DNA of 64,000 nt from contig RPFO01000086.1 of assembly GCA_009746045.1 (NCBI GenBank), forward strand, positions 399,732 to 463,731, given 5' to 3'. This document shows, piece after piece, positions 15,409 through 48,071 of this stretch (its first letter is position 1; every line of letters begins with the position of its first letter). The DNA comes from Mesostigma viride. Taxonomy: Eukaryota > Streptophyta > Mesostigmatophyceae > Mesostigmatales > Mesostigmataceae. The position numbers and the translations under genes were made by a program. The notes beneath the pieces are model-generated. The model made no database searches and was not told the DNA's origin. It worked only from the letters and a program-made list of their open reading frames with translations.

Positions 15409-15467
15409 TACCCTTTTGCCTTCCCGTCACGTTCCAGTTTATTTTTCCGTTGATGTCGTGCATGGAA

Positions 15468-15837: not shown

Positions 15838-15896
15838 TACCCTTTTGCCTTCCCGTCACGTTCCAGTTTATTTTTCCGTTGATGTCGTGTATGGAA

Positions 15897-22420: not shown

Positions 22421-22618
22421 CACCTAGGGGTGCCGACAGAGGTGGGAAGATGATCATGGCTATATACGAAGGCTAGGGCATGGATTCTTGCCACAGGGTG
22501 ACTCTCTGCATAGGCAGAGCTTGGCTATAAATTCTTAATGATGCAGCATCCATGGGCTAAATTCTTAATAATGCAGCATTCCACGGTTTATGGTGTGCCG
22601 AGCTATGGATGCCGAGAA

Positions 22619-26029: not shown

Positions 26030-27770
26030 TCTGAAGGTGCTCCGGATTGTGCTGAAGGATGCCGACAAGATGTCAGCAGCAGAGCAGGCCGCTATGTCGC
26101 ACATGCAGGGATGATTTCCTGGCCGTCTTCGACGCCCGTGGCAGCCGACAGCAGTTACACGCCATTCCGCCGCCGGGTGATATTTCGGTGATCCTCCGCG
26201 GTGTCGCTGCCAAGTATCGCCTGGCTGCCCGCACCCTCCCCACCGACCTTGCCTCCGCGCCGACAGCTTGCTGTCCACCGTCACGCACCGACAGTGGTCG
26301 CCGCCAGGCAGATGCTCCGCCGCAACAGGGATCCGATCGCCAAACCTGGGCTGCAAGCAGCTCTAAGGGCCGCCTACGAGCAGGCTGAGAAGGCAGACGC
26401 TCAGCAGATGGTCAAGGACCTGCGCAGCTGCCAGCAGAAGCACGACGGCAAAGGGGCCTGGTTCTGGTACAAGCGCCTCGGGCACCCGGACGGCCTCGGC
26501 CGGCCCCACCGTCACGACGTCCCCGGCGCCCCAGCCAAGCGGCTTCGTACCTGGGCCACGGCTACGGCCGAGGTCGTGGGGACAGCTGCGCCGCCCCCGC
26601 CCCTGCTCCCAGCCGCCGCCGCCCGCCCGGCCGCCCTGGCCGGCCCCGCTGGGCCCCCGGCCCCGCCTAGGTCAGCGGCGGACTACTTAGTCCCCCCGCT
26701 GGTCGGCCCACTTGGCGACCCGTCTGACATGCCTCCTTTCACCTCTCGCGAGGTCACGGAGGCGGTCCAGCGCCTGCGCTATGACGCAGCCACCGGCTCT
26801 GACGAGATTCCTAGCTGCCGCAGTTGTAAAACTTGCAGCCGAATTCGAGGACACAGGTGTTATGCTGCTCTTCCGGGACAATGATCTGCAACCGCCTTCT
26901 GCTGTCGTCGCAACCGCCTCCAGCGGCCTGGCAACACAGTTTTCGCACGATGCTGTACAAGAACAAGGGGTCGCCTGCCGACCGGCCCCGGCAACTACAG
27001 AGGGGTGTGCATTCAAAGTGCATGCCCCCCTCAAGCTTCTTATGCGGCTCATCCTGAACCGCCTGCGCACGCGGCCCTGGACGGTCACCTCAGCGAGACT
27101 CAGCACGGCTTCCGCTCAGGTCGCAACACAGTACAGGCGCTCTTCGCTACTCGCCGACTGGTGGAGGAACTGCAACGCCTTCAGCCTGGTGAGTCCCCTT
27201 TGCACCTTGTGCTGGTGGACTTCATCAAAGCCTTTGATTCGGTTTTCTGGCCTGCGCTTTGGGACATCCTCGAGTTGTTCTGGATCCTCGAGTTGTTCCG
27301 GATCCGGCCCCGCTCCCTTATTGCTGTCATCCGCAACCTGTATGAAGGGTCCACCACTTCGGTGCGCACTTCTTACGGGACCACGCCCCCATGCCCTTTA
27401 CAGAAGGGTGTGTGGCAGGGCTGCGTGCTGTCGCCCTACCTGTTCATTATTGTTGTGGTCGAATCCGTAATGATTCAGGCGCGCAAGCGATTTACCCGCA
27501 TCGTGGGTAGGGAACCAGGGGTGCAGGTCGCTAACAAATATTGGCATGGCGGAGCGGACACTGAGATTCGGCTGGCAGACATCATCTACGCAGACGACAC
27601 CACCCTCTTCGAGGACACTGGGCACGTGCAGACATGGCTTGACTGCCTGCATGGCTATCGAGGCCCGTGCAGTGGGGCTTGAGGTCAGCAAGAAGACAGA
27701 GGCCCTGGCGGTTGGGCTCACCCACTCACCGCCACCCCTCTATCTCCTCGACGGCTCTCGAGTCCTGTAT
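26030..27770 (+). pseudogene. LINE-B ORF2, reverse transcriptase domain
   Basis: Linker with EKADAQQMVKDLRSCQQK and FTSREVTEAVQRLRYDAATG (the pre-RT 'EV..A...L....G.D' block). The RT follows, broken by shifts near 26820-27000. From 27090 the blocks are clear: ETQHGFRSGRNTVQALFATR, LHLVLVDFIKAFDSVFW (first Asp), KGVWQGCVLSPYLFI, and LADIIYADDTTLFED (catalytic YADD). It ends in DGSRVLY at codon TAT 27768-27770, where the 18-kb element is inserted. The protein resumes in frame at 45842. L1-like by domain content. Confidence 0.8.
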
Positions 27771-27799
27771 GGGTGGTTTTACCGGATTAGGATACATTT

Positions 27800-28967
27800 G
27801 CACAGCTTCAAATGTATCCTAAATGCACCATTGGCAAACATGGTTTCTGGACATGGTCGATATCATTCATATGTTTGGCAAGCATGATATGATCATGCTT
27901 GCCAAAGATGTTGTCTCTTTTCATATTTCACACATATATTATCGGCCTCGGCGTGCCATGCTTCCACGTTTGTTGTCTCTTTTCATATATTGTAAATATG
28001 ATCAATAAAATTCCAAACATGACCATGTTGGAGACTTCAAGTGGAGCATCATGATTACTGTTTTCACTATTACGTAACCCATGGTTCATGTTAACATGGC
28101 ATAATGAGCAATCCTATTGACCCCATGACTAATGGTGAAGTTAATAAAGTTACATCGTGGCACGTCACTATAGCATCAAGTTGCATCATTGTGCATAAAG
28201 TAGTTTAGCACTGAGTTGGCATGCCAACACCAGGTACACTAAATAAATTAAAACCAGAATTGATAAACAACCCAGTATCCAAATACAGTATCCATATATA
28301 TGCAGGTCGTACTACAGGTACAGCCACGGCTGCCACGCGGCTTCTGCAGCGATCACGCTCTTTCTCCTAGACAATTGCTCTACTGGTCCCTACAGGTCGG
28401 TCGACTTGGACCATGATGCGTCAAGAACCGTTAATTGACCGACTTAAACAAGATGTTTGTCTACATGCAGCTGTCTGCACCTAACTAACGCGAAACCGCG
28501 TGCTACCAAATATAGCGGGAAATGCATGAGTAACACATGTCAACGCACAACCGGTGGAAATCACGCGATACCAACCGCGGCAACAGTGGTGTGAACATAG
28601 CGGGCACTGCCATGCAAAAAAGCACCAGCAGCGGCATCAGTAGCAAATTGTAGTAGCGGAACAATAGCCACTACATCAATGCAACAACACATCAGCCCAG
28701 CAACACAGCAGCAGCATGACCGTAGCACAGCAGCAGCACAACTGTAGCTCAGCAGCACGGCCGTAATGCAGCAGTGCATCAACACAGCAGCACGGCAGCA
28801 GCACGACAGCAATACATCAGCGGCACGGCAGCAATGCAGCAACACATCAGCACAACAGCACAACAGCAGCACGGCAGCAATGCAGCAACAGTAGCATGGC
28901 AGCACAGCAGCAGCAGCAGCAGCAGCAGCACATGAGCAGCTCAATGACAACAACCGCTGCTCGCGCT
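27800..28967. other. Left subterminal region of the 18-kb element
   Basis: No gene. It starts with a hairpin (GGATACATTTG / CAAATGTATCC). It repeats TTGTCTCTTTTCATAT twice (near 27911 and 27973) and TTGGCAAGCATGAT-like dyads near 27873-27905. From 28580 to 28935 there is a degenerate CAG/CAA-type repeat (AGCAGCACAGCAGCAA). It forms the 3' flank of the transposase gene. Confidence 0.6.
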
Positions 28968-31900
28968 TCAGCAGTCGTCGTCGTCGTCGTCGTCGTCATC
29001 GTCATCGGCAAGGATGAGCGCTCGCTTCCGACGCCGGGAGGCGCCTGCGTTGTTGTTCTCCGCCACATCGTCGCTGGGTGGAACCATCTCGCGCAATCGA
29101 GCCTCGGCCAGGGTGATATCCGGCGCTTGCAACGCAGGGACGACCACACCGGGGCACCCGCAGATCTGTGCCTCCAGCTCGTGGAGAGGCACACAAGAAA
29201 CCGCGTCCTCCTCCCAACGGGCACCCCAGTACATGGCTACCATGTCGTTTTGCGTGTCGACAACAGCGACACGACCATGGTACCTGCCGTCCCGGCTTTC
29301 GGTGCGACCGTCCGCGGATGTCACACGCTCCGACGCCCAATGACACACGACTTGCCCTACGAGGTTGCGGCTGCCACTCTTGACCTGCAGCCTTATGCCT
29401 TCCCAGCATGCCTTCGCCATGCCGACGATGCCCTTCGAGCATTCAGCATCTTGCCACTTCACGACCGGGTGTTCCGCGTCATAGGGCACCTCCTTCAGCG
29501 CCTTTAGGCACTCCTTGGTGAGCTTTTTGTTCGCACCCAAGGAGACTGCATGGGGCGGCTGACCTCGCTTGCCCACCACTTGTGTCAAGACGAGGTCTGA
29601 CGCGGTGATGATCACCGTGTGCGCCGCAGTGGTTGGCGGATGGGGCCATTGCGCAATGTCTGGGTTCCACGGGTGCCACGTGTCACGCAAATGCTTAGCG
29701 CGGTATACAAAGAGCTCAATAGAAGGTTGGCCGCCATCCTCCTTCGCAACCACCTCCTTGATGATGCCAAAGAGGACTGGAGTCCACGTGAGCTTCGAGT
29801 TGCAGAGAATACCAGCTGAAGGGTGCCAGTATAGAACAGCGGAGCCTTTCTCAACGCCTTGCATGCGCTTCAAGTAAGCGACCTTGGCTGTCATGGCCCT
29901 GTCTTCTGCCGCCCATTCCTGCTGTGTGTGGCCATCATGAAGAACTCGGTCTACCAGCGGGGTGACGCGCACCGCCTCTGCGTCGACCAACGCCATGAAG
30001 TGCTCTTCTTGCGTCGGTGGTGGTTCAGGCGCTGCATCGTGCTCACGCAGGGCGGAGATGTCCGCGCGAGATGGCCACGGCAAAGGGCGCCACTCCTCAG
30101 GCACCTCCTCAGGGGCATGTGGGACTTTTGCGAAAAAGGCCTCGTTTGGCTTGATGGTGTCGGGCGGAAAGTACCACTGCCAGATGCCATGGGGCAACTT
30201 CTCGACCCTTGTTTTGATCGACTCCAGCTCCTTCCCCAGAAACTCCATGTTCAATGGTGCGAAGGCTGGGGTGTCCTGCAACATCGGAATGCGGTCTGGA
30301 TCCACAAGTCGGACGCCAAACAGCGGCCGCCCCTCCGCATCAAACTTGTAAGGCTGTGTCATCGCCTTCCCGCACCGTGGCGCGCCTTCCTGTCGAGTCC
30401 CCGCGGGCTGCCACGGCGTCTTTTGGGACTCCGTGGTCCGGTAGGACAACCAGGTCTCTGCGTTGCCCTGTACCTGGAAGAAGACGGCGTGGTGCACCTT
30501 CATTGAGCGACCGCGTTTTTCAGGCACCGGCTGTGCCGCTCCGCCGCCCGCCGGCTGCGCCTCCGGCCCGCCGCGCGCCGGCTGCCCCGCCCCGCCGCCC
30601 GTCGACTGCCCCGCCCCGCCGCCCGTCGACAGCCCCGCCCCGCCGCCCACGCGCGCCGGCAGCGCCGCTGGCCCCCCGCACGCCGACCGCCCTGCCCCGC
30701 CGCCCGTCGACTGCCCCGCCCCGCCGCCCGTCGACAGCCCCGCCCCGCCGCATGCCAGCTGCGCCGGCCCGCCGCCCACGCGCGCCGGCAGCGCCGCTGG
30801 CCCCCCGCACGCCGACGGCCCTGCCCCGCCGCCCGTCGACTGCCCCGCCCCGCCGCCCGTTGACAGCCCCGCCCCGCCGCCCACGCGCGCCGGCAGCGCC
30901 GCTGGCCCCCCGCACGCCGACCGCCCTGCCCCGCCGCCCGTCGACTGCCCCGCCCCGCCGCCCGTCGACAGCCCCGCCCCGGCGCCCACGCGCGCCGGCA
31001 GCGCCGCTGGCCCCCGCGCGCCGACTGCCCCGCCACGCCGCCCGTCGACAGCCCCGCCCCGCCGCCCACGCGCGCCGGCAGCGCCGCTGGCCCCCGCGCG
31101 CCGACGGCCCCGCCCCGCCGCCCGTCGACAGCCCCGCCCCGCCGCCCACGCGCGCCGGCAGCACCGCTGGCCCCCCGCACGCCGACTGCCCCGCCCCGCC
31201 GCCCGTCGACAGCCCCGCCCCGCCGCCCACGCGCGCCGGCAGCACCGCTGGCCCCCCGCCCGTCGACTGCCCCGCCCCGCCGCCCGTCGACAGCCCCGCC
31301 CCGCCGCCCACGCGCGCCGGCAGCGCCGCTGGCCCCCCGCGCGCCGACGGCCCTGCCCCGCCGCCCGTCGACTGCCCCGCCCCGCCGCCCGTCGACAGCC
31401 CCGCCCCGCCGCCCACGCGCGCCGGCAGCGCCGCTGGCCCCCCGCACGCCGACCGCCCTGCCCCGCCGCCCGTCGACTGCCCCGCCCCGCCGCCCGTCGA
31501 CAGCCCCGCCCCGCCGCCCACGCGCGCCGGCAGCGCCGCTGGCCCCCCGCACGCCGACCGCCCCGCCACGCCGCCCGTCGACTGCCCCGCCCCGCCGCCC
31601 GTCGACAGCCCCGCCCCGCCGCCCACGCGCGCCGGCAGCGCCGCTGGCCCCCCGCGCGCTGACTGCCCCGCCACGCCGCCCGTCGACAGCCCCGCCCCGC
31701 CGCCCACGCGCGCCGGCAGCACCGCTGGCCCCCCGCACGCCGACTGCCCCGCCCCGCCGCCCGTCGACAGCCCCGCCCCGCCGCCCACGCGCGCCGGCAG
31801 CACCGCTGGCCCCCCGCACGCCGACGGCCCTGCCCCGCCGCCCGTCGACTGCCCCGCCCCGCCGCCCGTCGACAGCCCCGCCCCGCCGCCCACGCGCGCC

Positions 31901-34136
31901 GGCAGCACCGCTGGCCCCCCGCACGCCGACGGCCCTGCCCCGCCGCCCGTCGACTGCCCCGCCCCGCCGCCCGTCGACAGCCCCGCCCCGCCGCCCACGC
32001 GCGCCGGCAGCGCCGCTGGCCCCCGCGCGCCGACTGCCCCGCCCCGCCGCCCGCGCGCGCCGGCAGCACCGCTGGCCCGCCGCCCGTCGACGGCCCTGCC
32101 CCGCCGCCCGTCGACTGCCCCGCCCCGCCGCGCACCGGCAGCGCCGCCCCGCTGCCCGCTGACTGCCCCGCCCCGCCGCGTGCCGGCTGCGCCGCCGCTG
32201 CCGCCCCGCCGCGCACCGATGGCGCCGCCCCTCCGTGCGCCGGCTGCGCCTCGCTGCACGCAGGCTGCACGACATCACCACGCACCCTGGTGACCTTGAT
32301 AACCTGATCCTCCCTACCGGTCATCCAATCTACTGTGCTGCACCAACCGGCAAACGACTCGCGCTGCAACGGAGTGAGAAAGTTCCTGACATCGTAAGCG
32401 ACCCCCAATACCTTGACCTCCGTGCCAGCGGGGACGGTCGAGTTGCAGTTCGCAGCTGCACCACTAGGCTGACGGAATGCCTCTTCTATGGCCGCCACCC
32501 AGCTCTCCAAAGTTGGGTACTTGTGCACGAAGCTAGGCCCCCCCGCCACAGCGTGTCTCATGTAGGCCACAAGCACGCCGAATTTCTGATCTGGGTCGGC
32601 GTGCGTGTGGCCCACGAGCATGCGGTGCATTTCGACGACGTCGAAGAAGCCAACGTGTACGAGCCACCATGCAAACAGTAAGACGGTGTGATTCCGGTTT
32701 TCACTCCCACCGTCCAGTTGCAGGCACAAACACCTGGGCATGTGCGGCAGCCCCGCCCTCCTCCATGGCTGGTCCCTCATCAACTGCGCCAGGATGTGCA
32801 TCAGCATCGTGACGGTGACACTGCCGGAGAGGTTGTCGGTCATGAGGACCCATGCGAGAACGATGAACCACATCGCCTTGTACCCATGGACGGCCGCACA
32901 GAAGAGCGAGAACGGCATCATGCCACCTGCATAGCTGCCCCATGAGTCGGGCCCCCCCACCAGCTTCGGCCAGTATGTCTTGGCGTGATCCAGCTTGTCG
33001 AGGTTGATCGACAAAATGGCCGTCAACATAGCGGCCACCATCGCGCAGGCAAGCTCGCGCCTCAACCAATAGTTCTGGCGGGTAAACCAGGCCAGAGCGA
33101 CATGCTGCTTGATTTGGTTGTCGACGTACTGCCGTTGTGCCTCAGTTGAAGCACCGCGGCGCCGCATGCGCAGTTCCACGCAGTCCGCGCAGTGACCGGT
33201 GCTCTTGTTGTGCGGGCATACCACCACCTTCGGGCTCCTCTGCCCTGGGAAGTAGTCGCCTTTGCAGTAGGTGCGCCAGATGCGGTAGAATGCGTTGTAG
33301 CCTAGCACCTTGGCCCCTTCCCCCGCTTCTGCCACCACGTCTTCAACGTACATGGCGTGCATCTCCTTGATGGACATGACGTCCATGAAGACAACGCCAG
33401 CATGAGTCGGGTCATGGTCTGCGATCTGCTGCACCAACTCGTGCATCCACATTGCTGCGTGTTCGCCAACCTCCGAACGCCCCCGAGCATCACGCTCAGG
33501 TGGTGCGTGCTCCAGACCAACACCGAAAGTCGCTAGGTCGTTGGGATGCACGGTCAGGAAATACTCTTTCGCCGACACGACCGACGCCACCAGATTGTTC
33601 CAAGTCGCCCGGGTAACGCCGGCCATCTTCCGGATGGCAGATGCACAACCGGTGACGGTGTACATGCACCCCGCAATCACCACGTCCACGTGTAAAGGGC
33701 CGGTAATGATGTACTTCTTGTAACGGCCACCGTCGGCAGGGGATTCTACCTCGATGTTGCCCACGCCGGCCGACCGGATCACGTCGCAAAGGGAGGCCAT
33801 GCGCTGCTGGTCCGTTTGGTTGTACAGGTACTCTCGAAAGGCAGTCCACGACCTGGTATCGGTAAGTAAGGTGCCCACCTTCTCGAGGCAATGCTCCCCA
33901 CAAGTCGGACCGCACTTCCTGGCCTTGGCGATGTCCTTGTCAACGGACTTCAATTTGGAGGCGAGAAGCCGGGCGCCATCTTTCTTCCCACTGCGCTTCG
34001 CTCGAGAGGAAGACGTGCCGGGCCCCATTTCCGTGTGAAGCAGGTCGTCGTCAGAGCCGTCAGAATCTACGCCCCAACTAGCTTCAGAACTCGCATCCGA
34101 ATCCACCAGGTCTGGCACATCCCATTCTTCATCCAT
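28968..34136 (-). CDS. Giant DDE-like transposase (DUF7869-type pattern), 1,722 aa
   Basis: Intact frame from ATG 34136 to the stop near 28968. The N-terminus is acidic (1-35). A Cys cluster CGPTCGEHC lies at 75-83 and a second Cys pair CPHNKSTGHCADC at 307-319. The RNase H-like core has SINLDKLDHAKTYWP (376-390, Asp 380/383), CLQLDGGSENRN (471-482, Asp 474) and LVGHTHADPDQKFG (507-520, Asp 514/516). These blocks and their spacing match my memory of the DUF7869-type, transposase-like proteins common in algal and other eukaryotic genomes. Residues about 640-1180 are an Ala/Gly/Arg/Pro low-complexity insert encoded by a GC-rich tandem repeat. The C-terminal module (about 1180-1722) has no family I can name; it ends ICGCPG... 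and a run of Asp (DDDDDDDDDDDC). It is paralogous to 3990-4996. Single exon as written. Nuclear DNA transposition is inferred. Confidence 0.72.
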   Translation of the reverse strand: MDEEWDVPDLVDSDASSEASWGVDSDGSDDDLLHTEMGPGTSSSRAKRSGKKDGARLLASKLKSVDKDIAKARKCGPTCGEHCLEKVGTLLTDTRSWTAFREYLYNQTDQQRMASLCDVIRSAGVGNIEVESPADGGRYKKYIITGPLHVDVVIAGCMYTVTGCASAIRKMAGVTRATWNNLVASVVSAKEYFLTVHPNDLATFGVGLEHAPPERDARGRSEVGEHAAMWMHELVQQIADHDPTHAGVVFMDVMSIKEMHAMYVEDVVAEAGEGAKVLGYNAFYRIWRTYCKGDYFPGQRSPKVVVCPHNKSTGHCADCVELRMRRRGASTEAQRQYVDNQIKQHVALAWFTRQNYWLRRELACAMVAAMLTAILSINLDKLDHAKTYWPKLVGGPDSWGSYAGGMMPFSLFCAAVHGYKAMWFIVLAWVLMTDNLSGSVTVTMLMHILAQLMRDQPWRRAGLPHMPRCLCLQLDGGSENRNHTVLLFAWWLVHVGFFDVVEMHRMLVGHTHADPDQKFGVLVAYMRHAVAGGPSFVHKYPTLESWVAAIEEAFRQPSGAAANCNSTVPAGTEVKVLGVAYDVRNFLTPLQRESFAGWCSTVDWMTGREDQVIKVTRVRGDVVQPACSEAQPAHGGAAPSVRGGAAAAAQPARGGAGQSAGSGAALPVRGGAGQSTGGGAGPSTGGGPAVLPARAGGGAGQSARGGQRRCRRAWAAGRGCRRAAGRGSRRAAGQGRRRAGGQRCCRRAWAAGRGCRRAAGRGSRRAAGQGRRRAGGQRCCRRAWAAGRGCRRAAGRGSRRAGGQRCCRRAWAAGRGCRRAAWRGSQRAGGQRRCRRAWAAGRGCRRAAGRGSRRAAWRGGRRAGGQRRCRRAWAAGRGCRRAAGRGSRRAAGQGGRRAGGQRRCRRAWAAGRGCRRAAGRGSRRAAGQGRRRAGGQRRCRRAWAAGRGCRRAAGRGSRRAGGQRCCRRAWAAGRGCRRAAGRGSRRAGGQRCCRRAWAAGRGCRRAAGRGRRRAGASGAAGARGRRGGAVDGRRGGAVGARGPAALPARVGAGAGLSTGGGAGQSTGGGAGRSACGGPAALPARVGGGAGLSTGGGAGQSTGGGAGPSACGGPAALPARVGGGPAQLACGGAGLSTGGGAGQSTGGGAGRSACGGPAALPARVGGGAGLSTGGGAGQSTGGGAGQPARGGPEAQPAGGGAAQPVPEKRGRSMKVHHAVFFQVQGNAETWLSYRTTESQKTPWQPAGTRQEGAPRCGKAMTQPYKFDAEGRPLFGVRLVDPDRIPMLQDTPAFAPLNMEFLGKELESIKTRVEKLPHGIWQWYFPPDTIKPNEAFFAKVPHAPEEVPEEWRPLPWPSRADISALREHDAAPEPPPTQEEHFMALVDAEAVRVTPLVDRVLHDGHTQQEWAAEDRAMTAKVAYLKRMQGVEKGSAVLYWHPSAGILCNSKLTWTPVLFGIIKEVVAKEDGGQPSIELFVYRAKHLRDTWHPWNPDIAQWPHPPTTAAHTVIITASDLVLTQVVGKRGQPPHAVSLGANKKLTKECLKALKEVPYDAEHPVVKWQDAECSKGIVGMAKACWEGIRLQVKSGSRNLVGQVVCHWASERVTSADGRTESRDGRYHGRVAVVDTQNDMVAMYWGARWEEDAVSCVPLHELEAQICGCPGVVVPALQAPDITLAEARLREMVPPSDDVAENNNAGASRRRKRALILADDDDDDDDDDDC
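30530..32260. repeat. GC-rich coding minisatellite inside the transposase
   Basis: Imperfect units of about 100-150 bp. Each is built from GCCCGTCGACTGCCCCGCCC, GCCCGTCGACAGCCCCGCCC, CACGCGCGCCGGCAGCGCCG and CTGGCCCCCCGCACGCCGAC. It contains no stop codons in several frames on both strands, producing long spurious frames of about 580-680 codons. Unit-length changes not divisible by 3 switch the protein between Gly/Ala/Ser-rich and Arg-rich frames without ending it. Confidence 0.95.
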
Positions 34137-34640
34137 GTTAATAGGAAATCTACTGTATTACACCCGGTGGTGCTTGGACAGAAGCAAGAAACCCCGCCCA
34201 CCGCTCAAATGTGGCGCCCAACAAAGCCCCAAACTGTTTTCTTCAATAAGTCTACTGTTCTACATCCGGTGGTGGATGGACACAAGCAATAAAGGCCCCG
34301 CCCACACCTCAGATTTCTTTAGAAAATCTACTGATCTACATTCGATGGCGCCTTCACAGAAGCAGGAAACTCCGCCCACCGGTCAAATGTGACGCCCAAC
34401 AAAGCCCCAACTGATTTCTTCAAGAAGTATACTGTTTTACAGCCGGTAGTGCTTGGGCAGAAGCACTATAAAAGAGACAACCAGCGCAGGCCAGAAATCG
34501 CAGGCCAGAAATCGCAACTATGTAAAGCCCGCCCACACATCGGATTTCTTTACGAAAAACCTGTTTTACATTCGATGGGGTCTTGACAGATTCAAACAAA
34601 TTATCGTTTCTACCTGCGTGCGACTGCTGCGGCTGAGTGC
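34137..34640. promoter_or_regulatory. Divergent control region A: ~90-bp repeats
   Basis: Five imperfect units starting near 34149, 34250, 34329, 34428 and 34558, each with CTACTGTTCTACATCCGGTGG, GAAGCA-GAAACCCCGCCCAC and CAAATGTGGCGCCCAACAAAG. They lie directly upstream of the minus-strand transposase ATG. A plus-strand TATAAAAG is at 34467-34474. A promoter or transposase-binding array is inferred from position. Confidence 0.5.
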
Positions 34641-34651
34641 TGCAACTTGTC

Positions 34652-35665
34652 TTCACGTCTTCACGTCTTCACGTCTTCACGTCTTCACCGCGTCTTCACC
34701 TGTCTTCACCACGTCTTCACGGCTTCACGGCTTCACGTCTTCACGGCTTCACCTGAACACCTGAACTTCACCTGAACTTGCCGTATCGTGTCTTCACGTC
34801 TTCACGTCTTCACGTCTTCACGTCTTCACGTCTTCACCGCGTCTTCACCTGTCTTCACCACGTCTTCACGGCTTCACGGCTTCACGTCTTCACGGCTTCA
34901 CCTGAACACCTGAACTTCACCTGAACTTGCCGTATCGTGTCTTCACGTCTTCACGTCTTCACGTCTTCACGTCTTCACGTCTTCACCGCGTCTTCACCTG
35001 TCTTCACCACGTCTTCACGGCTTCACGGCTTCACGTCTTCACGGCTTCACCTGAACACCTGAACTTCACCTGAACTTGCCGTATCGTGTCTTCACGTCTT
35101 CACGTCTTCACGTCTTCACGTCTTCACGTCTTCACCGCGTCTTCACCTGTCTTCACCACGTCTTCACGGCTTCACGGCTTCACGTCTTCACGGCTTCACC
35201 TGAACACCTGAACTTCACCTGAACTTGCCGTATCGTGTCTTCACGTCTTCACGTCTTCACGTCTTCACGTCTTCACGTCTTCACCGCGTCTTCACCTGTC
35301 TTCACCACGTCTTCACGGCTTCACGGCTTCACGTCTTCACGGCTTCACCTGAACACCTGAACTTCACCTGAACTTGCCGTATCGTGTCTTCACGTCTTCA
35401 CGTCTTCACGTCTTCACGTCTTCACGTCTTCACCGCGTCTTCACCTGTCTTCACCACGGCTTCACGGCTTCACGTCTTCACGTCTTCACGGCTTCACCTG
35501 AACACCTGAACTTCACCTGAACTTGCCGTATCGTGTCTTCACGTCTTCACGTCTTCACGTCTTCACGTCTTCACGTCTTCACCACGTCTTCACCTGTCTT
35601 CACCACGTCTTCACGGCTTCACGGCTTCACGTCTTCACGGCTTCACCTGAACACCTGAACTTTGC
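34652..35665 (+). repeat. 149-bp tandem array of CTTCACG(T) units
   Basis: About 6.8 near-identical 149-bp units; the marker CCGTATCGTGTC recurs at 34781, 34930, 35079, 35228, 35377 and 35526. Each unit is built from CGTCTTCA, CGGCTTCA and ACCTGAACACCTGAACTTC. It ends about 155 bp before the zinc-finger gene ATG and could be its promoter or 5' UTR, or a binding array. Confidence 0.95.
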
Positions 35666-35820
35666 GTATCGTATCTTTGATACATTGCATCATTTGCATG
35701 CCTTGGAGCTGCACGTCTTCAAGCAGTGTCACCCAGTTCCCGCTTGATTCAAATGCACTTCGCGCTTGAATTCGTGACTTCGCTCAAGGTGGAAGGTGAT
35801 GGGCACTAGCCACGGGAACT

Positions 35821-37472
<1,652 letters not shown>

Positions 37473-37486
37473 CACCGGGAAGGGGG

Positions 37487-37960
37487 GTGTGACATTTTGT
37501 GATATTTTGTGACATATCACGTGACATTTTGTGATGTGGATGTGACAAAATGTGACATTTTGTGATTTTTTGTGACAAAAGTGTGATATTCTGTGACATT
37601 TCGTGACAAATCATGTGATAAAACCAGCATATTCTGTGATTATCTTTGTGACAAAAACAAGGAAATTATCACAAAATATCAATGTCACGACTTGATAAAA
37701 CGCACTGACAAAATCCGTGACATTATCACTGATATATCACGAAAAAAGGGTGACAAATCCGTGACATTATCACGAAAAAAAGGGTGACAAATCCGTGACA
37801 TTATCACGAAAAAAGGGTGACAAATCCGTGACATTATCACTGATATATCAGGAAAAAAAGGGTGACGAAATCCGTGACATTGTCACTGATATATCAGGAA
37901 AAAAAGGGTGACAAAGCCGTGACAATGTCACTGATAAATCTAGGGAGAAAACAGTGACAT
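37487..37960. repeat. Left subterminal GTGACA/TGTGAT repeat array
   Basis: Short motifs GTGACATTTTGTGAT at the tip, then about five units of roughly 35-48 bp with ATCCGTGACATTATCAC, TGATATATCA and GAAAAAAAGGGTGACAAA. The mirror-image array lies at 43960-44260. Confidence 0.85.
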
Positions 37961-38573
37961 AAAACCACGGGCGATCATGACATATCACACAGATATATCA
38001 GAACACATTCCAAAGCAAAACGGATGAAAAGCACAGCTCGCGATTTCTTTATTACAAATATAAAGATAAATGTAACAGATCTTCATTCTTCATTCTTGAT
38101 TCTTCATTCTTCAACAGTGATTATCGATCAGTGACAATTTGCAAACGCCGGCTTGGCGCTTGTCGTTGCGTGACAGAAATCTCAGAATGTTCCTGGAATG
38201 CATTAAAAAACGCACATGCGCAAGAAACATTAACGGATGGTTGGTGTCAGTTGTCTCATCTGCCACCGCACCCTAGAAAACCAATTCATGAACAAGAAAG
38301 CGCTCGATATAGATCAAGAAAACAAAAACAAACCTGCACAGTCATGGCGCCTAGATGACGATGTTAAGTGGACGACGACGAGGAGGCCGGCACCTTGTCT
38401 CCCTGTGAGCAGAAAAAAAAAGGCAAGTTTGAACACTCAAGATTTGTCATAGCCTTTCACAGCCTCGATCAATAGAAATGCACATCAAAATCAATGTGTT
38501 GCCTAGAACATCCTTGAATGGGTTTCAAGAACAGCAAGGCGGCCTCCCCGCCCGCAAACTCATAATCCCAGTG

Positions 38574-38603
38574 TTTACAACCCCCTCATGAGGGGGTTGT
38601 AAA
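38574..38603. repeat. Perfect 30-bp palindrome
   Basis: TTTACAACCCCCTCA followed by its exact reverse complement. It lies inside the 6.8-kb element, next to imperfect CCCAGTTTCCCACAGCCCCC repeats (38630-38830). Confidence 0.95.
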
Positions 38604-39124
38604 ATTGCAATCAGTCATTAAAAAAAAAAAAAAATCCCAGTTTCACACACTGCCCACTCATAAATAATCCCAGTTTCTGACAGCCCCCGCTCAGCCCACT
38701 CATGAACAACCCAGTTTAGACCCCCCCACTCATACACTATCCCAGTTTCCCACAGCCCCCACTCAGCCCACTCTGACATTAACCACCCCAGTTTAGACAC
38801 CCCCTCTCATGAATAAGCCCAGTTTCCCACAGTCACCTGAGAAACCGCGCAACCTGGGGTCAGTCAGGTCAGTCACAGCCGGTGCGGCGCTAGATTACAA
38901 TACCGGTCCGATGTAGTGTAGTGGGGTGGGTGGGTGGGTGGGTGGGGGAAGGGGGGGGGGTTCCCCCTCCTTTGGCGGGTGTCAAGGGGGACATTGGTAG
39001 GGGTTGATGATTTAGTAGTTGTGGAACGCAGTTGTAAATGTGGGTAGCTCGTGCGTAGGTCACAGGTTCGTGTGAGGGGTGGGGATGCTTGGGTTGCCGT
39101 GGTGGCTTGCCTATGGTACGTAGG

Positions 39125-39299
39125 TGCCTGAATACAGTGGTGGGCAGGTGCACTTCGTGCACCCAGAGCAGGTGGCAGTTTACATTCCCCCACCTGCAAG
39201 AAGTAGCCAAGAGTGTATTAAAGGCCATATGCCCCTTCTCAGGGCTATGTGCTACATATACTCCCAACGGAGTTATGTTCCTAATTAATTAATTAATTA
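39125..39299 (+). mobile_element. SINE-like insertion with 12-bp TSD
   Basis: 175 bp, TGCCTGAATACAGTGGTGGG to (AATT)n. It is flanked by ATGGTACGTAGG at 39113-39124 and 39300-39311. This copy defines both ends of the dispersed family also seen at 10764, 21955, 51275 and 52295. Confidence 0.88.
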
Positions 39300-39311
39300 A
39301 TGGTACGTAGG

Positions 39312-42300
39312 CGGGCTTGGCGATGGTCTATGCAGCAGGGTCAGTTATGGTTGAGTGGACAAGGGGTTGGTTGCCCCGGAGGCCGGGGTGGGCGGGGTTG
39401 GTTATGGTTCATGTGGATGGTGGGGTGGAGTCATCGTATATTAGGGCAGCGGGGGGTGGGGTCACTGGGCGGGGTGCAGTGGTGTAGGGGAACCTCGTTG
39501 TGGGGCGGGTGGTTGGTTTAGTGGATGGTTTGCGATGTTGGTGTGGAATGTGGTGGAGGTAATACGGAAGGGTGGTAGTCACATAGGTTGGCTAGGGGGA
39601 CTCAAGGTGGATGGTCGGGTGGGTCAGCGTATGGTTTGGGGAGGAGGGCAGTGTATGGTTTGGGGAGGAGGGCGGTGTTACGGTGTTGTGGGGGACCTCA
39701 GGGTGGGGGCGAGAGTGGTCCGTAGTCAGGGGGGGATGGATAGCGGCATGTGGATGTCCGTAATGTATCTTTGTGGGTGGGGTGGGTATGGAACAGGCAG
39801 GGGAGTGGGGCGAGTGGGGATTAGCAGGGTGGAGGGTGCTGGCATTGTGGCGGGATGGTTGGAGGCACATGGACACACATAATGGCAAGAGTAACTGCAT
39901 GCATAGCAACATGGGACCAGCTGTTCCGAGAACATCTGAAACCCTCACCATGCAACAACCAACAGCAACCAGCAACTGCCAACAGTGACAACGTTCGCAA
40001 GATGTGACGCCAAGGCCATTGGAGATCCTGATGTAATTTCGGGGGGTTCCTAGTCCTGCCGTGTACTTAACTTAATTCAGGGCCGCACACTTCGTGTGGT
40101 GCAGTGGTGCAGCAAGGGCTCATGGCCGGTATGGTGGTAGCCGGTAGGTGAAGACCTTGCTGCGAATCGAGGGCGTGATATTGCATGGGAAAATGATGCC
40201 GAGAGTCTCAGGGCGTCTCGCGTGGTGACAGCTGCAGCGTGTGGGCCGAGGAGCTCGAGATGCAGGTCTCGTCGGTACATGTGGGCCACTGGAGAGGGCG
40301 CCAATGTGATGGAGGCCTTTCCATCGTGCCAGTTGGACATCACTCAACAGCCAAAGGGGCGGCTGCATTGGCGGTGGGGCTAGAATTCTGGTAACTGCAC
40401 AGAATTGACCCAAGAAAGCTCGAATCGCGGGCATGGGCAGGCAAGGTAAAAGAGGGAAACATTGCGCCAGCGGTTGAGGAAAGATGGCCTGTTTACAGTG
40501 CTGGGCCTCAGAAGGAGTCGAGGCGTCGGCTCAGTTGGCAGGGCGACGATAAGTCTGTCAAAGCTGCGCATGGGTGGCGCAATGAGAGCTCATTAGGAAG
40601 GTCTCGCGCAGGAGGTTTCGATAGGCTAAAATTTTTCTCAGTCCTCGAAGATTAGGCGGGTGAAAATCGTAAATCCGCCATAGCCGCCATTTAAAAAATT
40701 TTCCCGCTTTCCATGGGATATACTGCCTAGCCTTACAGTAGCCAAATGGATTTGCGTGCGCCTCAGTCCATGCACCTAGTCGTTCGCCATCGGTTTCGGC
40801 GCAATATTTGAATTTTGCGCAAGGATCCTGACGGGTTGATTCCAGACTTGCGCTTGTTGCGAAAGATTATTGATTTATTGTCCATTCATTCCAGACTCCC
40901 AAGCTAGGGGCCGCCGTCGACTGTAGTCTGAACGGTACGGCTAACAGTTACGATGCCAGGCCAGCAGCAAGCGGTCAAAACCAAGCGATACTAGAGAGTC
41001 ATGTCAGTCGTCTTTTTACTGGTTTCGTCAGTCAGTTATTCCTCATGTATGTCAAACTACTTCTACTCGGAGAGATATGTAGTAGCGGCGAAATCGGAAG
41101 GGGACGTGGGCAGGGGGGGGGCGGGAAGTACGACTGATGCAATATACCGTACGTTAGTTATCGTCACAAAGCGAGTGACTGACGATAGTAAAGGGCCTCT
41201 AATGACGACAGTGATGACGATAGTATTTGGCACTGATGAGTGATGACAGGAAGAGCGATGACCCCAAGTTACCAGACTTTGCGACGTTGATGAGACTTAG
41301 CGAATTGCGAGCCCTCATTCCAGTGGTTGCGCGGGTGTTACCGTTGAAGTTGAAGTTAAGACGACGCGAAAAAAAAAATTACTTGACTTGAACATCTATC
41401 CACGCTGCACAGGTGGGAAAGGTGGAAGGGAGCTGCGATCGGCTCGCAGCCAAGGCGGGATTATGTGCCTTTTGATTTCCAGCAATGTCGCTTCTGTATG
41501 AACGCACGTGGTGGTTGGAATAGGAGCATAGGCTCACTGATGACCGTCGTGATTTATGTAGCCATTAGGGCGTCGTCTTAAATGAATTCAGGAGCGAGCT
41601 CGGACAAGGCTACAAGCAGCCATCGGGGGAGAAACATAGGCATGGTCTGGAATAAAGCTTTAATCGATCTGTTCGCTCAGTGGTAGGCACAGCACATTCG
41701 GACATCCAGAAGCTGCCCACTCTTTACCAGGTGAGGTGAGCAAGGAATTCCTCGCCTGAAATTCTAATAAGTTTGCATCGACTTTAACATGCATGCCGTA
41801 CGCACGTGGCATTCTCACGTATCGCCCTAGGGCCAAGGCTGCTATGGGCCGCTCGGTTTCATGCCAAGTTAGCCGTGCTTGCCATGAATGCTGCAGCAGT
41901 TTCACTATCTCATTCGTACAAGGTCAATAGACTATGCAAACGACATCCGATTTAGTTTTCATGAAGGGCATAACCTTGTTCAGATTGAGAGTTGCATGAC
42001 ATGGGCTGCTCTTGCGCCACTTTCCTTGTCTTAACCTACTGATTCTCTGTTTATGCTTTCGGTCGTTATACATTCGTATGTGTGCATCTGTGTTGCCATT
42101 GTGGTGTCGATTTTGCGCGTGTACTTGTGATGCCTGATACCGTTGGACTTGCACGCGGCCCCATCGCATGTGGCAGCGACAAGCTCTTGGTCACCTGTCC
42201 AGCGCGGCGAATTCTTGATGGTGAGCAACGGTGATCATTCTTTATGTAGTGCTCATTCCTCAAATTATCAACGTGCTGTGCGTGTCAGCCACCATTGGCC

Positions 42301-43200
42301 TTGTTCTTCCAGCTTCAGTGCATGATTTTTTTGTAGCCCGCTGGTGATGCTCTGAGCTACAAATAGTTTGCATTATTTGTACCAATTCCTTCGCTGTCGG
42401 TAGAATCTTCTTTGCAATCCAGTAGCCTTGGTTGACATTCATGCATTGCTGGACTATATCTCGCTTCCTTGCATGGGTAGCATCTTTGCATATTTATCCT
42501 TTTTGCTCAGATCACAGCTTTTTTTCATTCCCTCCCCCCCGCTCCCCACCCTGAACGACTCCTGCTAGTGTCAACTGCAGACGTAGAGCCTTCAGCCTCG
42601 TTAGAGTTCATCCTACCTGTAACGGGGCATATTGTTGGTTGATTGGCCTTGCATTTTCTTGGCACTATTCAGGCGTTTCTTTCTTATTGCCGTATTAACC
42701 ATACAGAGATTGCAATGAAGTAGATTGTGAGGCCTCTTGGCATGTTAGGGAACCTTTGCGACTCCAGGATTTCTGGGTGTGCAGTTCCCTACAACTTGTG
42801 AGGCATGTAGATACAATTTAGGTGAACATCTATGGCCAATTTTTTTTCTCGAGCACCCCTGTCTCTCTCTTGGCCCAGTATCTCACCTTTCTTTGTCCTA
42901 AAATTAGGCCGGTACTCATAGATAGCCACGCAACTGCTGCGATCTCCCCCGCATCCTTACATACAAGTGAACTGAAGTCATGCAAAGTTGTTGGCACGTC
43001 CAGCGCGTAGCGTTCATCTCACTAACAAATTTTTGTGTGTACCGATGCGTGCTTTGCCGGATGATGTATTTTTGTCTTGCATGCAGGCAATATACCTAAC
43101 ACAGTCGGGCCGGGCACATCCGTCAGTCCAACACGGCGAGAGGCCACATGCGGATGCAGATTTTGTAGGCTCTGAGCCTTCAATGGTCACATTGCCGTAG
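39312..43200. other. Interior of the 6.8-kb element; no gene identified
   Basis: 39312-39880 is a degenerate G/T-rich repeat (GGTTGG, GGGTGGG). The rest is mixed-composition sequence with stops in all frames. Possible acceptor-like TTGCATGCAG ends near 43087, so small exons cannot be excluded. Confidence 0.4.
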
Positions 43201-43326
43201 CACTCGACAGTGTCCTGTGATTGTTTCTAGAGAGTCATCCAGTTACTTCAGCAATGGTGGCTGGGACAGCCCTCGTGATGGTTTCGGTGATGATGAGGAT
43301 GATGACTTTGATGACGAGGACTGTTG
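43088..43326 (+). other. Candidate terminal exon with acidic tail
   Basis: After an acceptor-like TGCATGCAG (43087), one frame runs to TGA 43324-43326. It ends in SNGGWDSPRDGFGDDEDDDF and DDEDC. This resembles the Asp-run-plus-Cys end of the 1,722-aa transposase. Upstream exons were not resolved. Confidence 0.3.
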
Positions 43327-43959
43327 AGCCCCGTTGTACTTCTCGGTCAACAGATTTTATATTGCATTTGTGAGATGATTGTGGGTGTCCATTTTGCACA
43401 CCACCCACAGCCATGCTTGAGTGCACCGTTCCTTGTGTGTGTATCAATACAGTTTGTGTTCGTATTTGATCAGTTGTGCCATTTCATCGGGTTGTTGCAT
43501 GCCATCTGAATATGTTCACTCCCCGTTGCCATTTTATCATACTAGTGTTGTGAGCTCAGAGCAATGGATGCATGATGCAGTGTTGTGATTCAGTGTAGAT
43601 ATTGACGATTTTACCTTTGATCAGCACGATGGATGCTTGGCCAGCGATGGGTCGGAGGTTGACACTTGATGACCGTGATGATCATTGCCCTGAATGTTCA
43701 ATATTGGTGTTTTTCTTAACATCCCAGTCGATATTTTTGCAATAAACCATGTCTCCCATGGCTCATGACATTGTGGTGCATTTTATCATGCACCTGAGAG
43801 TGTTTCCAGCTTGTTTTGTCAGTTCCTTTCAGTACGCTTGCCCCGTACCGCTGCACGTGTTGTCTCTCCTGGCATTGCCACCGTGTCGTGTCCCACCTTG
43901 GCCTTTTCCTTCTCCGTCTCTGCTGCGGCACGCACTTCCTTGCTGCGGATGTGCATTAT

Positions 43960-44260
43960 GCGTGCTTTGTGATATATCACTTCCCCTGAGTGGTTGTGAT
44001 TTATCATCTTGTCACATTTTGTTTTTCTGTGGGTTTGTGACATTTTGTGACACTTTGACATTTTGTGATAGTGACGTTATCACAAAATATGCTGGTTTTA
44101 TCACGTTTGTCACGTTTTGTCACAATCATGACATGTCTCGATCACAATTTGTCACAGTTTTATCACATTTTGTCACATTTTGTCACGTTTTATCATTTTT
44201 TTATCACAAAATGTCACAAAAGTGACATTTTGTGATAAAAAAATATCACAAAATGTCACA
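43960..44260. repeat. Right subterminal GTGACA/TGTGAT repeat array
   Basis: Dense TTTTGTGACATTTTGTGA and TCACAATTTGTCACA motifs in inverted relation to the left array. Confidence 0.85.
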
Positions 44261-44275
44261 GACCCCTTCCCGGTG

Positions 44276-44894
44276 CAGCAGCAGTTCCCGCAGCAGCAGC
44301 AGCAGTTCCCGCAGCAGCAGCAGCAGTTCCCGCAGCAGCAGCAGCAGTTCCCGCAGCAGCAGCAGCAGTTCCCGCAGCAGCAGCAGCAGTTCCCGCAGCA
44401 GCAGCAGCAGTTCCCGCAGCAGCAGCAGCAGTTCCCGCAGCAGCAGCAGCAGTTCCCGCAGCAGCAGCAGCAGTTCCCGCAGCATGCAGCAGCAGCAGTT
44501 CCCGCAGCAGCAGCAGCAGTTCCCGCAGCAGCAGCAGCAGTTCCCGCAGCAGCAGCAGCAGTTCCCGCAGCAGCAGCAGCAGTTCCCGCAGCAGCAGCAG
44601 CAGTTCCCGCAGCAGCAGCAGCAGCAGTTCCCGCAGCAGCAGCAGCAGTTCCCGCAGGCATCGTCGGCAGTGCTTCATCTACAGCTGGCGTCACCGGCAA
44701 CACAGCAGTTCCCGCAGGCATCGTCGGGAGCACTTCAGTTACAGCTGGCGTCACCAGCAGCGCTTCAGTTCCCGCAGGCAGCGTCGGCAATGTGGCAGAT
44801 TCCACAGGCATGGTCGGCACTGCAGCAGTTTTCGCAGGGACCGTCGGCAGCAGAGCAGTTCCCGCAGGGATCATCGGTGGTGCAGCAGTTCTTT
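44276..44894 (+). CDS. Zinc-finger/polyQ gene, continuation after the nested element
   Basis: Resumes the QQQQQFP coding repeat in phase with 35821-37472. At CAGCATGCAGCAG (about 44481-44493) the repeat phase shifts, so the continuing frame reads Ala/Val-Pro repeats. These become a diverged repeat (VPAGIVGSTSVTAGVTSSAS-like) up to GGAAVL. The block ends at a consensus donor, CTTT|GTGAGT (44895). The other frame stays Gln-rich (QFPQASSA-type) and is also open to the donor, so the true frame is uncertain. Either way the polyQ protein originally extended about 200 residues past the insertion. Confidence 0.6.
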
Positions 44895-45328
44895 GTGAGT
44901 CATTCGTGTAGTGTTGAGTGGGTGGGGTGGGTGGGTGGGGTGGGTGGGTGGGGTGGGTGGGTGGGGTGGGGGGGTGGGGTGGGGGGGTGGGGTGGGGGGG
45001 GGGGGGGGGGGGGGGTGGGGGGGGATGGGGGGGGTTGACTGTGTGACTGCGTGGCTGCTTGGCTGGAAAGGAGGGTGCGTGGCTGCGTGGCTGCGCTGCT
45101 GCGTGGCTGCGTGGCTGCGTGGCTGCGTGGCTGGCTGGCTGGGGGGGGTGCCGGGTGCGTGGATGCGTGGATGTGTGGCTGGGTGGGTGCGTCACTGCGT
45201 GGCTGGCTGGCTTTGTGGCTGCGTGGGCGGCTGGATGGCCGGGTCAGCGTGGCTGCGTGTTCAATGGGATGCTAATATGTTGTTGCCTTTGGATGCCACA
45301 ATTCATGGATTCTTTTGTTCACATGCAG
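44895..45328 (+). other. Intron with G-rich minisatellite
   Basis: GTGAGT donor (44895) and TTGTTCACATGCAG acceptor (ending 45328). The interior is (GGGTGGGGT)n, a G run of about 20 near 44995-45015, then GCTGCGTGGCTGCGTG repeats. Strong G-quadruplex potential on the plus strand. Confidence 0.55.
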
Positions 45329-45408
45329 GTGCTGCCGTCTTCCCCATCGACGTCGTCAAGACCGATGTCGCCAAGAAGGATGATGCAATCACTCTCGGCC
45401 ATGTTTAA
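45329..45408 (+). CDS. Zinc-finger/polyQ gene, putative last exon
   Basis: If the Ala/Val frame is used, one base carries over the intron. The exon then reads AAVFPIDVVKTDVAKKDD-type sequence to TAA 45406-45408, a compact coding-like tail. The alternative phase-0 reading runs Ser/Arg/Met-rich to 45448 and looks less natural. A polyadenylation signal AATAAA follows at 45728-45733, just inside the element's right end. Confidence 0.5.
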
Positions 45409-45809
45409 CTCATGTGGGCCTTCATGGCCACACGGGAAATATGATTGAATCAGTTCTTTGACACTGAGTTGGCACTAGACGCAACACCTTTGATGCACAT
45501 GAGTGCAGGGCGCATGTGTGGAAACCATGCAACCATGGCGATCCCTCAAAAAGTTTGGTTATGTAATAAGTGAGACAATTATTCCGGACGTATGATGGCC
45601 CAACGTCCTGTAAGGTTGAGTTGTCTTATTCAATTGGCATATGTTGTCTTATTGATGTTGTCTCATTGCCTTAATGGGTCAATTGTCTTAGTTTATATCA
45701 TGTATATCTTGGGAAACTCATTGCTTCAATAAAATGCATGTTAGGCGCAATCAACCCCCTCAAACACATCTGAAAACTGCACAGTGCATCAAATGTATCC
45801 TAAACAAAA
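45409..45809. other. Right subterminal region of the 18-kb element
   Basis: Noncoding, with TTGTCTTATT repeated three times (near 45630-45655) and TTGTCTCATT. These echo the TTGTCTC motifs at the left end and are candidate transposase-binding sites. Confidence 0.5.
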
Positions 45810-45841
45810 AAATGTATCCTAATCCGGTAAAACCACCCTAT

Positions 45842-46526
45842 CGGGACCGCGTCAAGCTGCTGGGCAGCCTGCTCCCCAGCTGCGAGGTTGATGTGGACCA
45901 TCGCATCTCCCTCGCCTGGCACGCTTTACGCCAGTATACCGGGCCCTGTGGCGCAAGCCCCTGGGCAACTGAGATCGAGAAACAGGACCTGTTCAAGGTC
46001 CTCGTCCTTCCTGTTCTCACGTATGGGGCCGAGACGTGGACCCTCACCGCCGACCTGGCCCGCAAGCTGGACGGCGCGGTCACCAACATGCTGCGTTCCA
46101 TTTTCAGAGTAGGATATGCTGCTCATGTCCGCAACGAGGACCTGTATCAGGGCATGCCATATATATATCACCAGCACCATTAAGCAGCGGCGCCTGCAGC
46201 TAGTAGGGCACTTAGCTCGCACCAACCAGGACGTAGACACCTCACGTGGCCCCCCCGCAGGTCTGCGCCCAGCTCAGCCTGGCCGGCACCTCCTGACGTG
46301 GGCCGGGCCCAGTCATGTTAGACGCCGCAAGGCCCGCACCTTCAAAGAACAGCTAGTAAAAGACATGGGGGGCCTAGGCCTCTCCGTGATTTGGACGAAG
46401 ATCATTGATGCATGGACAAGGCCAAGTGGGCCCAGGTCGATCATAGAGGACAACGAGCCCCCCCCTGTGGGGAAGCGCCCGCGTGTGCAAACCCGTGGGA
46501 GGCACGCCAGCCAGCTCCCCTACTAG
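45842..46526 (+). pseudogene. LINE-B ORF2, C-terminal part
   Basis: Continues the RT frame from 27770 without loss of phase: RDRVKLLGSLLPSCEVDVDH and RISLAWHALRQ, then LFKVLVLPVLTYGAETWTLT, the strongly conserved 'K..L...V.P.LLYG.E.W..T' thumb block of LINE RTs. KLDGAVTNMLRSIFRV follows. A frameshift near 46150-46185 moves to a frame with RRLQLVGHLARTNQDVDTSR, the 'GHl.R' block, ending at TAG 46524-46526. Together with 25069-27770 it forms one APE-RT ORF2 of normal order. Confidence 0.82.
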
Positions 46527-46641
46527 GGCAGCGTGAGGCTGCCTAGATAGATGTTGTAGTTAGATTAATGCTGTTAGATAGATGTCGTAGGTAGCTGATG
46601 TAGATAGACTAGACCGGTAGGACTGCTTGCACCCATCCATC
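46527..46641 (+). other. LINE-B 3' UTR, unique part
   Basis: TAGATAGATGTTGTAGTTAG, AGATGTCGTAGGTAGCTGATG and TAGACCGGTAGGACTG. It recurs in the truncated copy at 61168-61255. Confidence 0.75.
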
Positions 46642-48055
46642 CTGCATCCATCCATCCATATCCATCCATCCATCCATCCATCCATCCATCCATCCATCCA
46701 TCCATCCATCCATCCATCCATCCATCCATCCATCCATCCATCCATCCATATCCATCCATCCATCCATCCATCCATCCATCCATCCATCCATCCATCCATC
46801 CATCCATCCATCCATCCATCCATCCATCCATCCATCCATCCATCCATCCATCCATCCATCCATCCATCCATCCATCCATCCATCCATCCATCCATCCATC
46901 CATCCATCCATCCATCCATCCATCCATCCATCCATCCATCCATCCATCCATCCATCCATCCATCCATCCATCCATCCATCCATCCATCCATCCATCCATC
47001 CATCCATCCATCCATCCATCCATCCATCCATCCATCCATCCATCCATCCATCCATCCATCCATCCATCCATCCATCCATCCATCCATCCATCCATCCATC
47101 CATCCATCCATCCATCCATCCATCCATCCATCCATCCATCCATCCATCCATCCATCCATCCATCCATCCATCCATCCATCCATCCATCCATCCATCCATC
47201 CATCCATCCATCCATCCATCCATCCATCCATCCATCCATCCATCCATCCATCCATCCATCCATCCATCCATCCATCCATCCATCCATCCATCCATCCATC
47301 CATCCATCCATCCATCCATCCATCCATCCATCCATCCATCCATCCATCCATCCATCCATCCATCCATCCATCCATCCATCCATCCATCCATCCATCCATC
47401 CATCCATCCATCCATCCATCCATCCATCCATCCATCCATCCATCCATCCATCCATCCATCCATCCATCCATCCATCCATCCATCCATCCATCCATCCATC
47501 CATCCATCCATCCATCCATCCATCCATCCATCCATCCATCCATCCATCCATCCATCCATCCATCCATCCATCCATCCATCCATCCATCCATCCATCCATC
47601 CATCCATCCATCCATCCATCCATCCATCCATCCATCCATCCATCCATCCATCCATCCATCCATCCATCCATCCATCCATCCATCCATCCATCCATCCATC
47701 CATCCATCCATCCATCCATCCATCCATCCATCCATCCATCCATCCATCCATCCATCCATCCATCCATCCATCCATCCATCCATCCATCCATCCATCCATC
47801 CATCCATCCATCCATCCATCCATCCATCCATCCATCCATCCATCCATCCATCCATCCATCCATCCATCCATCCATCCATCCATCCATCCATCCATCCATC
47901 CATCCATCCATCCATCCATCCATCCATCCATCCATCCATCCATCCATCCATCCATCCATCCATCCATCCATCCATCCATCCATCCATCCATCCATCCATC
48001 CATCCATCCATCCATCCATCCATCCATCCATCCATCCATCCATCCATCCATCCAT
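46642..48055 (+). repeat. 1.4-kb (CATC)n microsatellite in the LINE-B 3' UTR
   Basis: More than 340 nearly perfect CATC units; only a few ATATCC interruptions near its left end. The truncated LINE-B copy at 61257-61270 has just three or four units at the same place, so the tract expanded here. It is open in several frames but not a gene. Confidence 0.97.
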
Positions 48056-48071
48056 CACTAGGAGTTAATTT

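Follow-up and report, generated by a model that had tools for sequence, protein, structure and literature searches.

KDZ elements, found in algae and fungi, are very large and carry large transposases and accessory genes (PMC12730594, PMC12477816). In the portion of PMC12730594 that was available, their target site duplications (TSDs) are 7-8 bp long, and Kyakuja is described as having CA..TG ends and no terminal inverted repeat (TIR). For the PHIS elements (PIF/Harbinger-ISL2EU-Spy, Pangu, Nuwa), the available sections of PMC4482050 report 3-bp TSDs in several groups, with TNA, ANT or CWG as targets, GG or GGG termini in Pangu and NuwaI, a length of about 4.5 kb for NuwaI, and usually a transposase gene accompanied by a second gene, mostly of the Myb/SANT type. 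The CMCT elements (EnSpm/CACTA and relatives) have 2-5 bp TSDs, mostly CA..TG ends and a C(2)C motif, as far as the same portion of PMC12730594 describes them. Here we describe a two-gene element of the streptophyte alga Mesostigma viride, located at positions 27771-45838 of a 64-kb stretch of contig RPFO01000086.1 (the window). We consider it probable that this element represents an abundant, recently active family of DNA transposons with an autonomous form of about 11.27 kb, that its gene 1, which codes for a DUF7869 protein, most likely specifies an RNase H-like DDD transposase, and that the copy in the window was later hit by an unrelated element with CAC..GTG ends.

The initial annotation, made from the sequence of the window alone, had delimited the element by perfect 29-bp TIRs and a TAT duplication, and both were found as described. 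The left TIR (27771-27799, plus strand) and the right TIR (45810-45838, minus strand) of the outer element match at all 29 positions, and the longest word common to the two ends is 29 bp, as against a maximum of 12 in 100 shuffled sequences. The termini are GGG..CCC, the left TIR beginning with GGGTGG, and TAT flanks the outer element on both sides (27768-27770 and 45839-45841). Four copies of the 11-mer AGGATACATTT are present in the window, always within 60 bp of an element end (the inner copies are at 27810-27820 and 45791-45801, both on the minus strand). Because these four occurrences fall two to each end, the 11-mers are candidate transposase-binding sites. The target site in the window (27762-27770 and 45839-45847) is an imperfect palindrome, a weak observation made on a single site.

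The element is inserted into a retroelement, which from its motifs we take to be a long interspersed nuclear element (LINE). This host copy contains a reverse transcriptase domain (RVT_1, E 2.3e-13; 27005-27682, plus strand) and picks up again at 45842. It had been proposed that removing the element together with one TSD copy exactly restores the LINE open reading frame (ORF). After such removal a 212-aa frame does read through the junction, downstream of the reverse transcriptase domain, but it is not in the frame of the reverse transcriptase ORF (27005-27682), which indicates that the host copy was frameshifted already before the insertion. Immediately downstream of the LINE fragment there is a 1.4-kb array of the tetranucleotide CCAT (46633-48056, 99% matches).

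A genome search with the TIR, suggested in the initial annotation, was performed in the 440-Mb assembly that contains the window. The exact 29-mer occurs 484 times (234 forward, 250 reverse), while the reversed control sequence gave 0 matches. All of the best 40 of 422 candidate left ends scored (the one in the window included) were 100% identical over 301 bp; where the flank was read (20 of the 40), the match started from GGGTGG in every case (20/20), and 19 different flanks were seen. The right side was fetched for 10 copies, three of which had no exact right TIR and were excluded from the TSD count (of these, C1580 is mostly masked, and in C1579 the match stops 2 bases before the end); the other seven all carried a 3-bp TSD (7/7). 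Twenty-nine further TIR pairs were picked from among the exact TIR matches listed, and 26 of them had 3-bp TSDs (18/20 in one batch and 8/9 in another). In total, 33 of the 36 other copies with both ends read carry a 3-bp TSD, compared to 23 agreements in 812 wrongly paired flanks, which served as control. The 34 duplications, including that in the window, comprise 21 different triplets, with TNA in seven (7/34) and with positions 1 and 3 leaning to T and A, respectively (27/68 each, both strands counted).

Among seven other complete outer copies, six are 10,834-11,277 bp long and one is 25,565 bp. For the C1868 copy the identity to the window copy is 100% over 6,100 bp; C2036, at 99.967% identity, differs by two 1-base indels. 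At C777, one outer copy sits within another, and the flank encodes a piece of gene 1 (translation read by eye). With TIRs, a TSD of fixed length and many copies at unrelated sites, the family has the properties of a DNA transposon, and because hundreds of copies share the same ends and nearly all of those sampled have 3-bp TSDs, the conclusion that a DUF7869-type protein belongs to a transposon with defined ends is strongly supported. It could be argued that segmental duplication or an assembly error, and not transposition, produced the repeats: two of the 20 left ends (L020 and L021) have the same flank, and C121, a copy with mismatched TSD, shares its left flank with C1933. However, the other flanks read all differ and 33 of 36 copies have the 3-bp TSD; on these TSD counts the duplication or assembly explanation, the probability of which we consider negligible, was rejected. 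As a separate observation, the L033 copy (G000:C1604:44564-44724) is inserted in a short regular array of TTACGC units, possibly a repeat of telomeric type.

The 18-kb size originally assigned to the element turned out to include a second, unrelated element of 6,803 bp (37473-44275), which interrupts the FPQ-repeat array of gene 2. This nested element has the ends CACCGGGAAGGGG..CCCCTTCCCGGTG, which match at 34 of 36 terminal bases, and it carries subterminal TGTGACATTTTGTGA repeats. Assuming a 2-bp CA duplication, the 15-base run of most array units is restored (8 + 9 - 2); the site lies inside a CAG repeat, where TSDs of 5 or 8 bp also match, and these figures derive from the window copy only. 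When the first 301 bp of the nested element were searched for and the best 40 of 196 candidates were scored (the copy in the window included), 32 matches began at the first base and 12 were 100% identical over the full length, thus the nested element is a family of its own. Pfam revealed no transposase in the nested region among the ORFs given (10 of 30 listed), and the nested element may be non-autonomous, or its transposase may be split by introns. The exact 13-base nested end was absent from the searched stretches of the 10 fetched outer copies. Subtraction of the nested element leaves 11,265 bp for the window copy. As six of the seven other complete copies have similar length (see above) and the nested end was not found in the outer copies, the 18,068-bp unit is a composite and the autonomous outer element is about 11.27 kb.

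Gene 1 (28968-34136, minus strand), the candidate transposase gene, is open over 1,722 codons. The DUF7869 assignment of its product was verified by a match to PF25273 at residues 437-589 (32370-32828, minus strand) with 57.8 bits and E 1.4e-15, the curated cut-off being 26 bits. The view that the 1,722-aa protein is a single functional unit was not upheld: residues from about 625 to 1200, i.e. roughly 580 of the 1,722, correspond to a GC-rich minisatellite (30527-32211, minus strand) without coding signature. In the minisatellite GC content is high and equal at all codon positions (0.86/0.91/0.88), in contrast to the sequence on either side, which follows the order GC3 > GC1 > GC2. Reading of the repeat switches between two frames, no stop interrupts four of the six possible frames, and the two 1-base indels of the C2036 copy, which lie within the minisatellite, break the single frame. 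The 759-aa protein P0003 aligns to residues 171-619 and then to residues 1206-1518 of gene 1, skipping the approximately 580 residues of the minisatellite. Judged from these sequence features, the minisatellite would be an intron or else an insert that is free to vary, and it offers a case in which intron and coding sequence can be tested against each other within a transposase gene.

Protein searches with the first 640 residues (E 1e-3) and with residues 270-600 (E 1) gave no match. With residues 458-545 as query, the sole protein matched was P0003 (source label Mesvir1/Mv26525). An ORF of a repeated family in the same genome is identical to P0003 over 714/714 residues, therefore P0003 was rejected as a cross-species relative; it represents a paralogous family and provides no evidence of spread between species. 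Collections of viral, plasmid, phage and prokaryotic sequences yielded no relative. Eight viral loci matched a short pattern, and these matches were judged to be due to chance.

The best 150 of 275 candidate PF25273 matches were scored in this genome, and no match was obtained in 14 control genomes. The matches listed fall into several classes of score and length, and since several of these classes hold many identical scores, there appear to be several repeated DUF7869 families. Two such further families (L119/L120 and L121/L122) have ORFs of 753 and 585 aa; at least in the first, there are arrays close to the gene. Searches for the ends of these two families found neither ends nor a related TIR, as the similarity extends beyond the sequence fetched or enters arrays, and one side is masked. 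Three families (the one described here, the P0003 family and the 585-aa class) were aligned. In the proposed catalytic core, residues 380-516 (32589-32999, minus strand), the acidic residues D380, D475, D514 and D516 are invariant in all three, as are C316, C319, H510, H512 and, further upstream, D242; D383, E479 and E502 vary. Of the acidic blocks predicted in the initial annotation D380 and D514/D516 thus stand, but "D474" is in fact D475, and D383 is not conserved in the third family. In two AlphaFold2 models, each based on a two-sequence alignment, the second half shows, at low confidence, strand-helix-strand-helix, an order of strands and helices that would suit an RNase H core.

The full-size copies were accompanied by shorter ones. 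Seventeen of the 29 tested pairs span 8.8-10.0 kb (up to 10,026 bp), and none of the 17 encloses a DUF7869 gene among the matches listed (best 150 of 275). Two short copies (9,112 and 9,920 bp) were read, and both have intact ends and TSDs; of the genes there remain the C-terminal portion of gene 1 and pieces of gene 2, whereas residues 1-1203, hence the DDD core, are missing. That these copies lost the catalytic core yet keep their ends and TSDs suggests, but does not prove, that core-less copies were mobilised in trans by full-size copies. Copies excluding one of the two genes had been named beforehand as evidence that would speak against the element. In the copies followed up, all seven of the first TSD set enclose a listed DUF7869 match (lists compared by eye), and gene 2 is in one piece in six, one having a frame-breaking indel; the two shorter copies lost parts of both genes, as non-autonomous derivatives do. 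A listed DUF7869 match was also found in six of the 29 further pairs (C121, C136, C196, C347, C426 and C557:300486), four of which have the 3-bp TSD and two of which (C121 and C347) do not.

These observations bear on whether DUF7869 could be a passenger, the element depending for its movement on a transposase supplied in trans by a different family that shares the same ends. Movement in trans is probable from the two short copies read, the genes of other giant elements in algae are all of non-transposase type according to the available part of PMC12477816, and 6 of the 12 pairs longer than 10,026 bp are without DUF7869 among the matches listed, all of which is compatible with the passenger role. 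Still, the only other recognised gene of the full-size form has no significant nuclease-like domain, and the DUF7869 matches form several distinct, repeated score classes and have a conserved acidic pattern. We therefore regard a passenger role as improbable, and favour gene 1 as the transposase gene.

The presence of a divergent Cys-rich, polyQ-containing gene, annotated initially as a zinc-finger/polyQ gene, was confirmed. Its 5' part (35821-37472, plus strand) includes the Cys-rich N-terminus and the polyQ/FPQ array, which resumes beyond the nested element in the 3' part (44276-44911, plus strand). Gene 2 of the window copy had been regarded as intact, but its ORF of 563 aa is cut short by the nested insertion. 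Of nine copies compared (C1580 was left out), seven have a gene 2 that is 100% identical over 1,430 bp; one of the remaining two contains an indel, and the second is interrupted. The ORF is 758-920 aa long in six of nine other copies, in two of which the FPQ array is in another frame; in the remaining three it is broken by an indel, interrupted, or extends past the end of the fetched stretch. As ORF length and FPQ frame differ between the copies, the tail of gene 2 varies freely. The N-terminus gave a sub-threshold match to PHD (E 0.032), and an accessory role in binding DNA or the transposase is probable for the product. Between the two genes (34137-35820), where two different repeat arrays had been claimed, there is one large array (149 bp x 6.8, 99% matches; 34649-35662) with short units inside it, and otherwise only a 14 bp x 2.3 repeat. 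The array region is probably a regulatory region shared by the two genes.

The following mechanism is envisaged. The DUF7869 protein would act as an RNase H-like DDD transposase using D380, D475 and D514 or D516, and its binding sites would be the TIR and the AGGATACATTT 11-mer that is repeated close inside either end. It would cut at the GGG terminus, and the ends would be joined to the target with a 3-base stagger, giving rise to the 3-bp duplication with its weak T..A lean; transposition would proceed by cut and paste rather than by copying. The Cys-rich, polyQ product of gene 2 would serve as the accessory binding protein, and the 9-10 kb copies without catalytic core would be mobilised in trans. 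The window copy would later have been struck in gene 2 by the CAC..GTG element.

Several observations weigh against this interpretation, among them the longer pairs without a listed DUF7869 match (see above). Three of the 36 copies have no matching flanks, and two of these (C121 and C347) enclose DUF7869. Neither an excision footprint nor an empty site was seen in the other copies, for which there is no empty-site search result. The mean predicted local distance difference test (pLDDT) scores of the AlphaFold2 models were 36.9 and 40.7, no solved structure matched better than E 0.1, and sequence searches yielded no relative outside the single genome. The last catalytic residue would be D and not E, and the triad is supported by three families only. 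In gene 2, the part before the nested element showed no significant domain in Pfam, NCBIfam or among solved structures.

Outside the element and its host, the window contains five tandem copies of a tRNA-Leu(CAG) gene in a 143-bp repeat (15322-15988, 97% matches); 1.5 kb further downstream lies a sixth (17479-17562). Foldback-like inverted repeats, resembling small palindromic (MITE-like) elements, are common to 10776-10913 and 21866-22471. At the left edge of the window (4-1836) there is a reverse transcriptase of Copia type, its RVT_2 match (E 2e-06) falling short of the curated cut-off.

Comparison with the known superfamilies was based on Pfam-A models and on published descriptions. The outer element resembles KDZ in its very large size, large candidate transposase and accessory gene. 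It differs from KDZ in having 3-bp TSDs (33/36 copies and the window), GGG..CCC ends and a 29-bp TIR. The TSD length, 3 bp vs 7-8 bp, supports the exclusion of KDZ, in agreement with the mismatch pointed out in the initial annotation. Pfam holds a KDZ model; it was not among the Pfam matches to E 1, in a search whose HMMER filters drop most weak matches. With EnSpm/CMCT the outer element shares a TSD length within 2-5 bp, but its ends are GGG..CCC instead of CA..TG, and there is no C(2)C motif between the second and third acidic residues (alignment read by eye). The likeness to EnSpm/CMCT is that of the nested element, with its CACCGGG..CCCGGTG ends and a 2-bp CA duplication that also falls within 2-5 bp.

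A further resemblance is that to PHIS and in particular to Nuwa, with which the element shares 3-bp TSDs, GGG termini and the two-gene layout (PMC4482050, in the sections available). This likeness, and the lean of TSD positions 1 and 3 to T and A, would be explained if the family belonged to a catalogued superfamily (for example a divergent PHIS/Harbinger, EnSpm or Sola group, or a differently named Repbase entry), DUF7869 being the Pfam label for that transposase. We consider this possible but rather unlikely: the TSDs do not in general conform to TNA, ANT or CWG (see above), the element is about 11 kb long as opposed to about 4.5 kb for NuwaI, no other Pfam-A transposase model, PHIS-type models included, matched the gene 1 protein to E 1, and no Myb/SANT domain was detected to E 1 in the portion of gene 2 that precedes the nested element. 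No paper in the literature collection searched contains "DUF7869", although a Repbase entry, under this or another name, could exist.

On the features tested, the best reading would be a family of DDD transposases outside KDZ, PHIS and EnSpm, with a core that is probably of a new type. A Pfam family of unknown function thus becomes a testable transposase with defined ends, TSD, near-identical copies and natural core-less derivatives, and a recently active giant transposon is available in a streptophyte alga. Gene 1 and two other families of this genome exceed the cut-off of PF25273, an entry which gives no function and which is here connected with an element that has ends and a TSD. It is, in our estimate, an even question whether the DUF7869 family supplies the transposases of a superfamily of eukaryotic DNA transposons that is as yet undescribed; such a superfamily would have GGG..CCC termini, a core of the form D-94-D-38/40-D, two genes in an element of giant size and 3-bp duplications whose sequence is almost free, and would comprise several families in this streptophyte alga, where it was recently active.

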